From an uncultured bacterium (GTDB lineage Bacteria > Desulfobacterota > GWC2-55-46), in assembly GCA_905339405.1 (NCBI GenBank), contig CAJPGC010000057.1:1-54653 (forward strand): a stretch of DNA of 54,653 nucleotides. Direction: 5' to 3'. Of this stretch, positions 803 through 6,722 are shown one piece after another. Positions within the stretch are counted from its first letter, which is position 1; every line of letters starts with the position of its first letter. The notes beneath the pieces were generated by a model that saw nothing but the letters and a program-made list of their open reading frames with translations, searched no databases and was not told where the DNA came from. The position numbers were made by a program, and so were the translations under genes.

Positions 803-961
803 ATGGTGAACAGGGAAGAAGGGCCTGTGCCGTCCTGGCAGGTGTTCTATGATAACATCTGGCTGCTGCTGATTCTCGGAATAGTCTTGCCTACACTTGT
901 CTACACGGTCTGGGGGCTCATAGAGGTAATGATGGTGCCCCCTCTTCCGGTAGCGCCTTAA
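803..961 (+). CDS. Small single-span membrane subunit of the haem-copper reductase (52 aa)
   Basis: A 52-residue protein, too short for most gene callers, preceded by AAGGAGG at 789-795. It starts MVNREEGPVPSWQVFYDNIW, followed by one hydrophobic span (about residues 19-43) and a short tail. Its stop codon TAA (959-961) sits inside the ribosome binding region of the next gene, so the two are coupled. Tiny single-helix subunits are known in ba3-type oxidases (subunit IIa) and related enzymes; position directly before subunit II supports this role. The family itself is not recognised, so the role rests on context. Confidence 0.7.
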   Translation: MVNREEGPVPSWQVFYDNIWLLLILGIVLPTLVYTVWGLIEVMMVPPLPVAP

Positions 962-974
962 GGAGGAGATGAGA

Positions 975-1511
975 ATGGCGATTTACGAACCCGAAAGAGT
1001 ATGGTGGAACCCCCTCAGCAAGGATGAGAGGATATGGGTCGCCCTCGCGCTTATATGGATGCTTGTCTCCTTCATCTTCATGCCCATCTACCACCTCGTC
1101 GGCGCGCAGAACCCTCCCGCCGAGACATATTCCGTCAGCGCAGAGGACTATGACAAGCTGGTCGAGGGCATGATAGCGAAGTACAAGGTCGGCGAGGAGA
1201 ACGGCTTCCCAGTGGTGCACCCCAGCGCCGATGAGCCCGTCTACATAAGGGCCTCGATGTGGCAGTGGTACCCCATTGTCGAGCTCGAGAAGGGCAAGAC
1301 CTACAAGCTCCACCTCTCGTCGATGGACATCCAGCACGGCTTCTCGCTGCTGCCCATCAACATGAACCTCATGGTATTGCCGGGCTACGATTACGTCGCT
1401 ACCATTACGCCGACGACGTCCGGCGAGTTCCACGTGGTCTGCAACGAATTCTGCGGCGTGGGCCATCACATGATGGTCGGCAAGATGTACGTAAAGGAAC
1501 CTGCCAAGTAG
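975..1511 (+). CDS. Haem-copper reductase subunit II with CuA centre
   Basis: A 178-aa membrane-anchored cupredoxin subunit that takes electrons from a periplasmic donor and passes them to subunit I. An N-terminal span (about residues 23-42) is followed by the cupredoxin fold. CuA ligands are visible: H121 in DIQHGF and the C156-x3-C160-x3-H164-x2-M167 motif, with E158 also present. There is no CxxCH, so no fused cytochrome c. I start at ATG 975 because the AGGAGG at 961-966 is 8 nt away; ATG 969 is only 2 nt from it. It lies between two tiny membrane proteins and before subunit I, as in compact B-type or CuA-type NOR operons. Confidence 0.9.
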   Translation: MAIYEPERVWWNPLSKDERIWVALALIWMLVSFIFMPIYHLVGAQNPPAETYSVSAEDYDKLVEGMIAKYKVGEENGFPVVHPSADEPVYIRASMWQWYPIVELEKGKTYKLHLSSMDIQHGFSLLPINMNLMVLPGYDYVATITPTTSGEFHVVCNEFCGVGHHMMVGKMYVKEPAK

Positions 1512-1536
1512 GCGGGAACTGAAAGGAGAAGCGAAA

Positions 1537-1671
1537 ATGCCTAAACAGGAGCACAGAGATACAGTAGAGGCCCCGGGGGTGTTCGTCCTGGCCCTCATCT
1601 TCCTGGCCGTTTTCATAATCATTTGGTTCGCGCACCTCAAGTGGCTGATGGACATCTGGGGCGTGCAGTAA
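1537..1671 (+). CDS. Second small membrane subunit of the haem-copper reductase (44 aa)
   Basis: A 44-residue protein with a GAAAGGAGAA ribosome binding site about 8 nt upstream. Residues 13-33 form a single membrane helix, followed by a short tail ending DIWGVQ. It is placed 25 nt after subunit II and 60 nt before subunit I. Like the 52-aa product at 803 it resembles the single-helix accessory subunits of haem-copper enzymes, but I do not recognise the family. Its conserved spacing and strong ribosome binding site argue that it is real. Confidence 0.65.
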   Translation: MPKQEHRDTVEAPGVFVLALIFLAVFIIIWFAHLKWLMDIWGVQ

Positions 1672-1731
1672 AGCCCGGCTTTCTTTCCGGCTTCGCAAAA
1701 GAATTGGTAAATCAGAAAGGGGCATTAACTT

Positions 1732-3243
1732 ATGGCGAGTATCTTCAGAACAGACCCTTCGACGGGCCTCAAGATAGATAGGGCGAGCGAGAACCTCATA
1801 AGGTGGAACCTCATCGCGGCCCTGGCTACCCTCGCGGTAGGCGGTCTTCTGGCCCTCGGCGTCGTGCTGACCAGGTGGCCGAGCGTGCACCTGCTGCCGC
1901 TCGACTATTATTACAGGTTCCTGACGCTCCACGGCATCGACGCCCTTCTGGCGTGGATAATCTTCTTCGAGATAGCCCTCGTGCACTTCACGTCGACGGT
2001 CATACTGGGCACGCGCTCTTACGTGCCCTGGCTAGGCTGGCTGGCCTTCGCCCTCATGCTCATCGGCGGCGGCCTCATAAACGTCATCGTCCTCATGGGC
2101 GGCGCGGACGTGATGTTCACCTCCTACGTGCCTTTGAAGGCTGACCCGCTCTATTACATCGGCGTCATCCTCTTCGCCGTGGGCGCGCTGCTGGGCTTCA
2201 TCATCTTCTTCATAAACATCGTCCTTTCCAAGAGGGACGGCGGCTACAAGCGCTCTCTGCCGCTCGGCTCCTTCGGCATGCTGGCGGCGTCCATCATCGG
2301 CGTTCTGACGCTCGCGCACGGCGCGGCCATATTCATCCCGACGCTCCTGTGGGCGCTGGACTTCATACCCTGGGTCGACCCGGCAGCCTACAGGCTCGTG
2401 TTCTGGGGCCTGGGGCACCCCAGCCAGCAGATAAACGTCTCGGCGATGGTCGCCGTGTGGTACATGACGGTCGCGTTCGTCCTCGGCGGCAAGCCGGTGA
2501 ACGAGAAGCTCTCAAGGACGGCTTTCGTCCTCTATATCCTGTTCATCAACGTCGCCTCCGAGCACCATCTCCTCGTCGACCCGGTCCTTTCGACCTGGCA
2601 CAAGATAGTGAACACCAGCTACATGATGCACCTCGCGGTCCTGGCCTCGATGATACACGCCTTCGCCATCCCGGCCTCCATCGAGGTCGCCTTGAGGAAG
2701 CAGGGCTACACGAGGGGCCTGTTTGAGTGGCTCAAGAAGGCCCCCTGGGGCAACCCGGCCTTCTCCGGCATGGCCATATCGATACTGCTCTTCGGCTTCC
2801 TCGGCGGCATCACCGGCGTAATCTTCGGCACAGAGCAGTTCAACATCATCCGCCACAACACCATAGCGATAACCGGCCACTTCCACGGCACCGTCGTTGC
2901 GGGCACCACCGTGGCTTTCATGGGCTTCACCTATCTCCTCATCCCCTACGTCTTCAGGAGGGAGATAATATGGAAGGGCTTCGCCTCAATCCAGCCGTAC
3001 CTGTACGGCACGGGCGTGGCGCTCCTTTCCATAGGCATGATGTCGGCTGGCTCCTTCGGCGTGCCGAGAAGGCACTATGACATAACGTTTTCCGGGGCGC
3101 CTTTCTCCTTCACCTTCGACCCCTCCATCGACATGTTTCTTTCGATGATGGGCGTAGGCGGCCTCCTGGCCGTCACCGGCGGAGTCCTTTACATACTCCT
3201 CGGCTTCGGCTCCATCATCTGGGGAAAGAAGATAGAGCATTAA
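1732..3243 (+). CDS. Haem-copper oxidase superfamily subunit I lacking the active-site Tyr (possible NO reductase)
   Basis: A 503-aa integral membrane subunit I with about 12-13 helices. Low-spin haem ligands are H67 and H385, the high-spin haem ligand is H383 (motif GHFHGT), and CuB ligands are H229, H278 and H279. In oxygen reductases a Tyr cross-linked to a CuB histidine is essential: at His+4 of helix VI in A and B types, or six residues before the His pair in cbb3. Here these positions are Q233 (motif GHPSQQ) and I272, so both tyrosines are missing. That pattern is typical of nitric oxide reductases of this superfamily (eNOR-like groups with a CuA subunit). An oxidase of unknown type cannot be excluded. 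A strong terminator follows. Confidence 0.88.
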   Translation: MASIFRTDPSTGLKIDRASENLIRWNLIAALATLAVGGLLALGVVLTRWPSVHLLPLDYYYRFLTLHGIDALLAWIIFFEIALVHFTSTVILGTRSYVPWLGWLAFALMLIGGGLINVIVLMGGADVMFTSYVPLKADPLYYIGVILFAVGALLGFIIFFINIVLSKRDGGYKRSLPLGSFGMLAASIIGVLTLAHGAAIFIPTLLWALDFIPWVDPAAYRLVFWGLGHPSQQINVSAMVAVWYMTVAFVLGGKPVNEKLSRTAFVLYILFINVASEHHLLVDPVLSTWHKIVNTSYMMHLAVLASMIHAFAIPASIEVALRKQGYTRGLFEWLKKAPWGNPAFSGMAISILLFGFLGGITGVIFGTEQFNIIRHNTIAITGHFHGTVVAGTTVAFMGFTYLLIPYVFRREIIWKGFASIQPYLYGTGVALLSIGMMSAGSFGVPRRHYDITFSGAPFSFTFDPSIDMFLSMMGVGGLLAVTGGVLYILLGFGSIIWGKKIEH

Positions 3244-3296: not shown

Positions 3297-3391
3297 GCCC
3301 GGTTATGGAACCGCCGAGCTGTTTCATGATATAATCTTCAGGAAAAACAACGGAGTATGCTGGATTGACAGGCCGCCGGAACGGGCCGGAT

Positions 3392-3556
3392 ATTCTCTCT
3401 TAGGGGCAAATACCCCTCAGCTTGCTGCGGTTTTTCTCCCTCTCTCTTGATGGGGGAGGGCAGGGGTGAAAAGAACTCACCATCCCCTTAATCCCCTCCC
3501 ATCGAGGGAGGGGAAGATTATTTAGATACCCGCTGTTGAGGCGGGAAGGTTCATTT
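3392..3556 (+). repeat. Dispersed repeat R1, copy 2
   Basis: Second copy of the repeat at 13-183, same orientation, about 90% identical by eye, with an 8-9 bp deletion in the middle relative to copy 1. It occupies most of the 410-bp gap between subunit I and the SCO gene, so the two transcription units have been separated by repeat insertion or the repeats arose together. Confidence 0.8.
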
Positions 3557-3655: not shown

Positions 3656-4471
3656 ATGAACAAAGCCTTTCTCTTTCTGTTTTTTCTTCTGACGCTGGCG
3701 GCCAGCGCCGGAGCCGCCCAGCTCGACCCTGTCATACTGAAGAACGCCGTGGACGCCTCGGCCAAGGCCGAAGGCACGAAGATAGGCGAGTATTCGCTCG
3801 TCGACCAGGACGGCGTCAGGTTCAACCTGGGCGAGTATTTCAAGGGCAACAAGCCGCTGGTCATCAGCTACATATATACGAGCTGCCCGGTCGTGTGCCC
3901 GACCATCACTGCCGAGTTCAAGAAGGCCGTCGACGGCGCGAAGGAGGCCTTCGGCGACAAGTTCAACGTCCTGACCATCGGGTTCGACCCTGCTAACGAC
4001 ACTCCGGAAAAGCTAAACGAGTACGGCAGGAAGTTTACCGGCAGCTTCGAGGGCTTCAGGTTCGCGAGCTCCGACCCTGAGACTATCGAAAGATTATTGA
4101 ATGCGGCCGGTTTTTTCAGGGTAAGGCAGGACGACGGCAGCTTCGACCACATCGACATGGTGACGACCTTGAGGCCGGACGGCACGATATACAGGCAGGT
4201 GTACTCCTTGCGCACGCAGCCGCAAAACCTCGCCCTGAGGATGGAAGAGCTCTTGACTGGCAAGGCTGGCGGGGCCGCTTCGTTGACGCTCGTGGACAAG
4301 CTCAAGTTCTTCTGCTACAGGTACGACCCCTATTCCGGCAAATACGTGCTCGACTACCCGGTCTTCGTAAGTATCTTCATCCAGGCGCTCATCATAGGCG
4401 GGATATTCTACGCCGTATGGGGGAAGAGGATGATGGCGAGGTTCAAAAGAAGGAAGGAAGGCAACAGATGA
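3656..4471 (+). CDS. SCO1/SenC-type copper chaperone with C-terminal membrane anchor
   Basis: A 271-aa thioredoxin-fold protein that delivers copper to the CuA centre of subunit II. The start at ATG 3656 gives a signal peptide MNKAFLFLFFLLTLAASAGA; a longer frame from 3608 adds only an unlikely leader. The copper motif CPVVCP is present, with the partner His in the FDHIDM segment. Unusually, a membrane helix (about residues 238-260) sits at the C terminus followed by a basic tail. The TGA stop overlaps the next start (ATGA). Its presence next to a CuA enzyme supports cofactor assembly; the FNR-type box upstream suggests regulation with that enzyme. Confidence 0.88.
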   Translation: MNKAFLFLFFLLTLAASAGAAQLDPVILKNAVDASAKAEGTKIGEYSLVDQDGVRFNLGEYFKGNKPLVISYIYTSCPVVCPTITAEFKKAVDGAKEAFGDKFNVLTIGFDPANDTPEKLNEYGRKFTGSFEGFRFASSDPETIERLLNAAGFFRVRQDDGSFDHIDMVTTLRPDGTIYRQVYSLRTQPQNLALRMEELLTGKAGGAASLTLVDKLKFFCYRYDPYSGKYVLDYPVFVSIFIQALIIGGIFYAVWGKRMMARFKRRKEGNR

Positions 4472-6066
4472 AAGAAACTGAAAACGGGGTCGTCTCCGGC
4501 TCCGGCGAGGTAGTAAGAGAGGACAGGGGCGCGTCCCCTTCCAGGGGGTTTGGCGCGGGCGGGCCGCTCCAGCGGCTCTGGCTGAAGATGGAATCCCTCG
4601 TGAACTCGCTCACCACCCCGGCTTTGAACCCCTTTTACTACCTAGGCGCCATCTGCGTCTTTTTCCTCTGGATAATACTCGTCTCGGGCATCTACCTTTT
4701 CCTCTTCTACAGCATAAGCGCAAAGGGCGCGTACCTCTCCATCCAGAACCTGACGGTCAACCAGTGGTACCTGGGAGGCGTAATGAGGAGCCTCCACAGG
4801 TACGCCTCGGACGGTCTCGTCATTTTCATGCTGCTGCACGCCCTCCGGTGCTTCACGCTCGACAGGTACAAGCACTGGAGATGGCTAGCGTGGGTTTCCG
4901 GCATAGTCATAGCCTGGGTCGTCCTCATAGGCGGCATCTTCGGGTACTGGATGGTCTGGGACGAGAAGGCCCGGCTCGTGGCAACCCTTTCGGCCCACCT
5001 CCTCGAGAACGTGCCGATATTCGGCCTTCCGATGTCGCTCAACTTCTCAAGGGTAGCGAACCTCACCGACCAGCTCTTCTACATAGTGCTGTTCATACAT
5101 TTCTCGACCATCTTCTTTCTTTTCATCGCGATACTCGTGCACATCGTGAGGATAACCAAGGCGGTCATAAACCCGCCAAAGGCGCTCGCCTGGGGCATAA
5201 TGGTTATGCTCCTCGCGCTTTCTTTCATAAAGCCGGCCATGAGCATTTCCTCGGCCGAGCTCAAGTGGCTCGCCGACCCCGTACAGTTCGACTGGTTCTT
5301 CATGTTCATCTTCCCGCTCTTGAAATACATGAGCGCGCACATGCTCTGGGCCTTCATCGCCGGGCTCACCGTGATGGCGGCCCTCATACCGTGGATGACT
5401 CGCTCGCAGAGAAAGCCGCCGGTTGAGATAACGCTTTCCAACTGCACCGGGTGCGAGCTGTGCGCCGAGGACTGCCCTTACCAGGCCATACAGATGAGGA
5501 AGAGGACGGACGGAATGCCTTACCCGCTGGAGGCGCTCATAATACCGAAGCGGTGCGCGAGCTGCGGCATATGCGTGGGCTCGTGCGACTACAAGGCGCT
5601 GAACCTGCCGGACATCACCGAGGACGCCGTGAAGGCTTCAGTCAGGAGGCACGCGAAGGCGTTGAACGAGGCCGCCCCTGCGGGCCCGAAGATAATCGTC
5701 TTCGCCTGTGCGAAAGGCGCGTGGCTGGACGGGGCTGACGGGAAGATTCCAGGGTTTGATTCTGCAAGAGTAGTGAACCTGCCGTGCATCGGCATGCTCC
5801 AGCCCTCGATGTTATCCATCCCCTTCGAGAGGTCTGCGGCGATAGACGGCGTCTTCGTCGCCAGCTGCAAGCAGGGCGACTGCCATTACAGGAGGGGAGA
5901 TGAGTGGTTCATGGGCAGGCTCGCGGGCCACAGGCCGCCTGTCGTAAGGAAGGCGGTCGACAGGGCCAGGCTCAAGGTCGTCCACCTCTCCGCCGCAGAG
6001 AAAAAGGAGTTCCTCGAAGAGCTCGCGGCCTTCGGCGCTTCCCTCGGTGAGAGGAGGCAGAGATGA
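4468..6066 (+). CDS. Fusion protein: cytochrome b - 2[4Fe-4S] ferredoxin - MvhD-like domain
   Basis: A 532-aa fusion. Residues 60-315 form a cytochrome b/b6 core with two bis-His haem pairs, H110/H124 and H211/H225. Residues 326-336 and 363-373 hold two 4Fe-4S motifs (CTGCELCAEDC and CASCGICVGSC). The C-terminal part (about 405-515) resembles the MvhD/hydrogenase delta subunit, with C414, C440 and the C467KQGDC472HY signature. The layout suggests electron transfer between a quinone pool and a cytoplasmic iron-sulfur partner, in line with heterodisulfide-reductase or hydrogenase links. Start ATG 4468 overlaps the SCO stop and has AGGAAGGAAGG upstream. Whether it feeds the CuA reductase is inferred from the operon only. 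Confidence 0.85.
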   Translation: MKETENGVVSGSGEVVREDRGASPSRGFGAGGPLQRLWLKMESLVNSLTTPALNPFYYLGAICVFFLWIILVSGIYLFLFYSISAKGAYLSIQNLTVNQWYLGGVMRSLHRYASDGLVIFMLLHALRCFTLDRYKHWRWLAWVSGIVIAWVVLIGGIFGYWMVWDEKARLVATLSAHLLENVPIFGLPMSLNFSRVANLTDQLFYIVLFIHFSTIFFLFIAILVHIVRITKAVINPPKALAWGIMVMLLALSFIKPAMSISSAELKWLADPVQFDWFFMFIFPLLKYMSAHMLWAFIAGLTVMAALIPWMTRSQRKPPVEITLSNCTGCELCAEDCPYQAIQMRKRTDGMPYPLEALIIPKRCASCGICVGSCDYKALNLPDITEDAVKASVRRHAKALNEAAPAGPKIIVFACAKGAWLDGADGKIPGFDSARVVNLPCIGMLQPSMLSIPFERSAAIDGVFVASCKQGDCHYRRGDEWFMGRLAGHRPPVVRKAVDRARLKVVHLSAAEKKEFLEELAAFGASLGERRQR

Positions 6067-6722
6067 TAATCATACTCGTAACCCTTCTGGCCTTCGTCAT
6101 ACCCGTCGGCATATACCTGTTGCGTGAATGGAAGAAGAACAGGGAAAAGGAAGCGAAGGAGGGGCTTCAGCCGAAGAAAAAAGAGCCCCTCTCTATTGCG
6201 GGGCTCGTGAAGGTGTGCGTCCTTCTGTCCGTCTTCGCAGTCCCGGTCTACTTCTTATCGGATACTCCATACTCCTATTACGATAAGGACGACGGTGTGG
6301 TGAAAATTGCGTTCAAGCACTCCGGCACGAGGGTGGCCGACTGCGAAGAGGCCGACCTCATAAAGAAGGAGGGCGACAGGTACAGGCAGCAGCTCAAGGA
6401 CACCAGGCGGGTGCGCATGAGCATAGAAAAGATTGCGAAGTGCCCGCGCGAAAGGCACCCCGTAATGCTCGAGTTCTACGTGGACGGGGAAAAAGTCCTG
6501 GACAGGGCATACTCGCCGACCGGCTTGAAAAAGGACATGGCCTCGTATATATATGACGAGTTCCCCGTCCCGCCGGGAGAGCATTCATTCCGCGCGCTCC
6601 TTTACGACTCCGGCGGGAAAGACACGCCTGCCTACGCGCTCGATACCAGGTCGGTAGTGAAGCCCAGGGAAGTGAAGGTCGTCTGGTTCAGCGACAAGTC
6701 TGATTCACTAGTGATGGAGTGA
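6063..6722 (+). CDS. Membrane-anchored protein of unknown function
   Basis: A 219-aa protein whose ATG overlaps the TGA of the fusion gene. Helix 1 spans about residues 2-18, a basic cytoplasmic stretch follows, and helix 2 spans about residues 44-66, placing a domain of about 150 residues outside. That domain contains two cysteines, in VADCEEAD and IAKCPRER, and a beta-rich second half. No known family is recognised. Translational coupling to the cytochrome b fusion indicates a role in the same complex or in its assembly. Confidence 0.75.
   Translation: MIIILVTLLAFVIPVGIYLLREWKKNREKEAKEGLQPKKKEPLSIAGLVKVCVLLSVFAVPVYFLSDTPYSYYDKDDGVVKIAFKHSGTRVADCEEADLIKKEGDRYRQQLKDTRRVRMSIEKIAKCPRERHPVMLEFYVDGEKVLDRAYSPTGLKKDMASYIYDEFPVPPGEHSFRALLYDSGGKDTPAYALDTRSVVKPREVKVVWFSDKSDSLVME

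Follow-up and report, generated by a model that had tools for sequence, protein, structure and literature searches.

The window, by which we mean the whole stretch of 54,653 nucleotides analysed here, encodes a haem-copper enzyme that we very probably have to regard as a nitric oxide (NO) reductase: by sequence it belongs to the eNOR family, and the reaction that we infer for it is the reduction of NO. It is a further member of a family that is already known and has been characterised elsewhere. Reportedly, a PNAS study of 2024 defined eNOR and characterised a member from Rhodothermus marinus, and it is this Rhodothermus marinus enzyme that we take to be the characterised representative. N2O, the product of NO reductases, is a strong greenhouse gas. 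Standard annotation would file the window enzyme as an O2-consuming oxidase, so that the metabolism of the organism would be misread. Some genomes of the host's class that hold nitrite and N2O reductases would seem to be short of the NO step, and recognising eNOR fills this gap.

The active site of subunit I

The catalytic subunit I of 503 residues is encoded at 1732-3243 (forward strand, like all features of the window described below) and was recognised by its COX1 match, its ligands, a tree, an alignment and a structural model. Its reading frame matches Pfam COX1 at E=1.2e-58 and contains all six histidines for the haems and CuB (H67, H229, H278, H279, H383 and H385), as had been noted in a preliminary description of this DNA. 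That description had also pointed out the lack of a Tyr at both known sites, an observation that turns out to hold for all 64 eNOR-type sequences compared. Four residues after His229, in helix VI, the active-site Tyr of B-type oxidases is replaced by Gln233 (GHPSQQ), and the cbb3-type position, six residues before the His278-His279 pair, is occupied by Ile272. When 64 Gln-bearing eNOR-type sequences were aligned with eight Tyr-bearing B-type oxidases, Q233 was present in 64/64 of the former, whereas the aligned residue was Tyr in 8/8 of the latter; the cbb3-type position was Ile or Leu in 64/64 eNOR-type sequences. Sequencing error, frameshift or chance can be ruled out as the source of Q233, because the residue is common to all relatives, and Ile272 rules out an oxidase whose Tyr has moved to the cbb3 site. 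Gln232, Gln233, Asn235, Glu80, Tyr297 and His309 are each invariant among the 64 eNOR-type sequences and missing at the aligned positions of the eight B-type oxidases, and Tyr244 and Ser306 are, like Glu80 and His309, invariant throughout the 64.

Among solved structures, subunit I is closest in sequence to the Aquifex B-type oxidase (7deg) and to Thermus ba3. Its AlphaFold2 model (mean pLDDT 83.9, pTM 0.87) matches 7deg with a Z score of 36.9 and an rmsd of 2.3 over 477 aligned residues; A-type oxidases equal 7deg in Z, at lower sequence identity. B-family oxygen reductases (PDB 1ehk and 7deg) thus resemble the window enzyme in fold (Z about 36-37), in the CuA subunit, in a IIa-like peptide and in the six histidines, but are only 23-24% identical to it over the structural alignment. 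Moreover, Tyr237, Tyr244 and Thr312 of the oxidase correspond to Gln, to Val or Ile, and to His in eNOR, respectively, and Glu80 is an invariant residue of eNOR.

How might such an enzyme reduce NO? We envision a CuA-containing haem-copper NO reductase, akin to the B-family (ba3-like) oxygen reductases, in which a periplasmic donor would feed electrons into the CuA site of subunit II; they would then move to the low-spin haem (His67/His385) and on to a binuclear centre composed of the high-spin haem (His383) and CuB (His229, His278 and His279). At this centre, two NO molecules would be converted to N2O and water (2 NO + 2 e- + 2 H+ -> N2O + H2O). In oxidases, the cross-linked Tyr supplies an electron and a proton for cleavage of the O-O bond; in the window enzyme, Gln233 takes its place. 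Since the two-electron reaction of NO splits no O-O bond, a Tyr would not be needed, and a Gln could be accommodated at this position. Protons may arrive by a modified K-type path, in which Tyr244, Ser306 and His309 are invariant and the equivalent of ba3 Tyr244 is lost. The K-path of ba3 is made of Tyr237, Tyr244, Tyr248, Ser309 and Thr312, and the aligned residues of the window family are Gln233, Val/Ile240, Tyr244, Ser306 and His309; judged from this alignment, a modified K-type path is likely in eNOR. Reaction, haem type, electron donor and proton delivery are, for the window enzyme, what we infer.

Gene neighbourhood and class-wide co-occurrence

The preliminary description had posited a CuA subunit and two tiny membrane peptides, all of which are borne out by conservation. 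Subunit II (180 residues, 969-1511) has a weak COX2 match, together with matches to CoxB and to the C-terminal CuA domain of NosZ, and carries the full set of CuA ligands (H123, C158, C162, H166 and M169), which is kept in 67/67 homologues. Only the gene of a 44-residue single-helix membrane peptide (1537-1671) lies between it and the gene of subunit I. This peptide has one hydrophobic stretch and homologues in 43 loci, where they sit either before or after subunit I. A second single-helix membrane peptide, of 52 residues (803-961), also has one hydrophobic stretch, and its homologues, found in 62 loci, are mostly encoded directly upstream of the CuA gene. In ba3-type enzymes, the gene of subunit IIa directly precedes that of subunit II (PMC3128077), and in size, position and hydrophobic stretch the 52-residue peptide resembles the subunit IIa that B-type haem-copper enzymes have.

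Downstream of subunit I follows a Sco/SenC copper chaperone (3656-4471; PF02630, E=4.4e-17), whose homologue cluster is present in 41 eNOR loci and which probably loads copper for the CuA site. The next gene encodes a fused di-haem cytochrome b/2[4Fe-4S] ferredoxin/FlpD protein (4468-6066; PF00033, PF12838 and PF02662) with homologues at about 39 eNOR loci from several phyla; we conjecture that it is a candidate electron-supply partner of eNOR. It is accompanied, in an order kept at many eNOR loci, by the adjoining gene of a membrane-anchored protein of 219 residues (6063-6722), for which a family search gave no confident family. A direct repeat of about 150 nucleotides (12-165 and 3391-3538, 91% identical) flanks the eNOR gene block; since the genome contains 14 copies of it, some complete and some partial, it is a dispersed intergenic repeat.

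The host is an uncultured groundwater-type Deltaproteobacterium, and the window is one contig of its metagenome-assembled genome (MAG) of 2.65 Mb. This genome holds a haem d1 cluster with NirF, NirJ and NirN, the cd1 nitrite reductase NirS (606-residue frame), a cNOR whose NorB has the motif HLWVEGVWE, and two A-family oxidases; two models found no N2O reductase in it. In the host, NirS would make NO, which eNOR and the co-encoded cNOR probably convert to N2O. Given the presence of this cNOR, eNOR is not the sole NO sink of the host.

From a wider perspective, eNOR is found in 35/63 genomes of the host's class. It occurs in 20/25 genomes with full-length NirS versus 15/38 others (p=0.002) and in 13/15 genomes with N2O reductase versus 22/48 others (p=0.007), and at the level of genera, collapsing to which is how kinship was handled in these tests, in 12/12 with N2O reductase versus 9/26 without (p=2e-4). 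cNOR is inversely related to eNOR across the class (p=0.015) and is present in 0/15 of the genomes with N2O reductase. The co-occurrence with nirS and N2O reductase lends extra support to the reading of the window enzyme as an NO reductase. Gene calls were threshold-based; one NirS was in two pieces, one lactonase-type NosZ was truncated, and several lactonase-type NosZ scored slightly below the curated cut-off. For the NosZ of G244, the score is 500 bits where the cut-off is 625. Four NirS genomes of the class have neither eNOR nor cNOR, which may in some cases be explained by incomplete MAGs. The N2O reductase of the class is mostly of the lactonase type (NF052460); this clade III enzyme (e.g. 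at L110 and L111) was seen in 13 class genomes plus one truncated copy, never together with cNOR.

Linkage and physiology in relatives point in a similar direction. At two loci (L039 and L040), nirS-nirN is divergent from the eNOR operon and less than 1.5 kb away. In the isolated Verrucomicrobium Verruconatronum alginivorum, NirK lies beside an eNOR homologue, which is the reported NO reductase, and 4 mM nitrite was turned into 1.5-1.7 mM N2O (PMC13274419). The Rrf2 and DUF542 genes close to eNOR in Thermus, and the hemerythrin gene close to it in Defluviimonas, likewise speak for an NO reductase.

Is this chemistry respiratory? Conceivably, eNOR carries out the same reaction in another role, namely to remove NO in microoxic surroundings, perhaps reducing O2 as a side activity and contributing little to energy conservation. 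We regard this as possible, if the less probable assignment; it overlaps with our preferred explanation, in which the role stays open. It would accord with the genes related to NO or iron-sulfur stress near eNOR in Thermus (Rrf2 and DUF542) and Defluviimonas (hemerythrin, which follows the eNOR homologue along with CyoE, Sco and the cytochrome b protein), with the occurrence of eNOR in 15/35 eNOR genomes of the class that are without full-length NirS, and with the statement that eNOR works under microoxic conditions (PMC11388526). In five class genomes (G016, G244, G245, G246 and G252), however, NirS and N2O reductase are accompanied by eNOR as the only NO reductase found, with no cNOR, qNOR-length frame or Asn-type reductase among the matches listed, and eNOR would there be the sole link between the two enzymes, i.e., respiratory; a qNOR-length frame (about 750 residues) was likewise absent from the class genomes among the COX1 matches listed. 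Nitrite respiration also doubled the growth yield of V. alginivorum (PMC13274419), which argues against a role confined to NO removal.

Alternatively, the window enzyme may be an oxygen reductase that has given up the canonical Tyr, relies on another residue or mechanism and still has O2 as its main substrate. Such an enzyme would share the oxidase-like fold and ligand set, its relatives are indeed annotated as oxidases, and several further Tyr that might serve instead are invariant in eNOR-type subunit I (Y61, Y132, Y142, Y244, Y268, Y297 and Y401). We nevertheless consider this highly improbable, because none of the 64 sequences has a Tyr at either of the two known positions, because the host has its two A-family oxidases besides, and because eNOR goes together with nirS and N2O reductase and is inverse to cNOR.

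Placement within the eNOR family

The assignment as eNOR follows from the residue at the Tyr site and from phylogeny. The active-site residue is Gln in eNOR, Asn in sNOR and CuANOR, Asp in gNOR, Glu in cNOR and qNOR, and Tyr in oxygen reductases (PMC8756737, Table A4). Relatives of the window enzyme were collected by a scan with one genome per species, which yielded 65 related loci; a plasmid collection yielded further ones from Defluviimonas, Thermomicrobium and Thermus, the sole Gln-type matches there among the loci read. In a maximum-likelihood tree, which was computed without the biochemically proven eNOR (Rhodothermus), the Natronomonas eNOR and bNOR/sNOR sequences, the Gln-bearing sequences form one clade (97/93) that takes in the Thermus, Thermomicrobium and Opitutia homologues and within which the window subunit I stands beside its Deltaproteobacterial kin. 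The sister of this clade is a CuB-less group (100/99), and the B-type oxidases come next (100/99) and are separate. Some long branches were flagged, none of them within the eNOR clade. Placement deep within an oxygen-reductase clade, together with a Tyr at an equivalent site, had been named beforehand as the result that would speak against an NO reductase; tree and alignment put the enzyme among Gln-bearing sequences instead.

Other haem-copper classes can be set aside on similar grounds. Gln233 stands where a B-family oxygen reductase has Tyr (His+4 of helix VI), Ile272 where a C-family (cbb3) enzyme has it, and the helix VI sequence GHPSQQINV is unlike the HLWVEGVWE-like helix of cNOR and qNOR; the separate cNOR of the same genome (L003), which does have HLWVEGVWE, is far from the window subunit I in the tree. 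The preliminary description had left the choice between eNOR and bNOR, of which the former stood, by virtue of Gln, clade and context, and the latter did not. CuA NO reductases of the bNOR (CuANOR) and sNOR type resemble eNOR in B-type origin and in a similar operon layout with Sco, and Bacillus has the same gene order of small peptide, CuA subunit, subunit I and Sco (PMC3475470), but that the window encodes such a Bacillus-type enzyme is barely credible, as these carry Asn at the Tyr site (PMC8756737, PMC3475470), whereas Gln marks eNOR and the window enzyme groups with Gln-bearing sequences in tree and alignment.

The NO reductases that have been characterised biochemically include eNOR (PMC11388526), and Deltaproteobacterial eNOR, along with its misannotation as cytochrome oxidase, has been reported earlier (PMC8756737). 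Relatives of the window enzyme are annotated 'cbb3-type cytochrome c oxidase subunit I', much as the label cytochrome c oxidase had been predicted. With the family as described (PMC11388526, PMC13274419), the window enzyme shares its descent from B-type enzymes, the Gln that replaces the Tyr, the CuA subunit II and the six histidines. It differs in belonging to a subgroup with Glu277, His290 and His300 and in a neighbourhood that adds the cytochrome b-ferredoxin-FlpD protein and the 44-residue peptide, a comparison that leaves the Rhodothermus sequence and operon aside. The eNOR homologue on Thermus thermophilus plasmids (L075, L076) is 46% identical to the window enzyme, has the motif GHGAQQ and an adjacent CuA gene, but carries, at both loci, Lys for His at the low-spin haem ligand 385 in helix X (GHFK versus GHFH) and is followed by the Rrf2 and DUF542 genes.

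Positions 277, 290 and 300 co-vary within eNOR: Glu/His/His occurs in 35 sequences, the window included, and Ala/Trp/Tyr in 25, with four exceptions. Residue 277 adjoins a CuB histidine, and the presence of the Glu277/His290/His300 triad next to CuB in one eNOR lineage looked unreported in searchable papers.

Some loci hold more than one haem-copper subunit. Tandem duplicated genes for eNOR subunit I, with one CuA gene directly upstream, were found at L020 (3820-5343 and 5980-7506) and L112 (104-1615 and 2267-3778). A further haem-copper subunit I, in which Asn occupies the Tyr site (GHIVMN), adjoins the eNOR genes at L112 (4597-6042), L113, L114 and L118; it is probably an NO reductase of the nNOR/sNOR type, such that two kinds of NO reductase would be encoded next to each other. 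In one MAG (L068), the genes of eNOR subunit I and cytochrome b are split over several frames, probably by assembly indel errors.

A CuB-less sister protein

The sister group of eNOR consists of a haem-copper subunit-I paralogue that we call HCO2. It keeps His67, His229, His383 and His385 and is without His278 and His279, two of the three CuB histidines, in 10/10 sequences counted in the alignment, a loss also seen in every other HCO2 copy looked at. The host encodes HCO2 on contig 36, on the reverse strand (L005 / L085:8463-9881; G000:C36:13489-14850). The protein is modelled confidently, as a mostly helical membrane protein (pLDDT 87.9). Within the fetched flanks, HCO2 lies near eNOR in 19 loci (e.g. 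L025:7712-9190) from Deltaproteobacteria, Nitrospirota, Nitrospinota, Burkholderiales and Verrucomicrobiota, and it is often followed by CyoE. Genomes that have cNOR or NirS but no eNOR also contain it, so HCO2 is not specific to eNOR. No report of a CuB-less haem-copper paralogue was found in the titles and abstracts searched, which is weak evidence of novelty.

What might HCO2 contribute? A speculative and rather doubtful proposal is that it serves as a regular partner of eNOR, be it in electron transfer, NO binding or assembly; the same proposal includes the triad next to CuB in the eNOR lineage to which the window enzyme belongs. Within the class, CuB-less HCO2 occurs in 34/35 eNOR genomes versus 12/28 others (p=1e-6), which makes it a concrete, testable lead.
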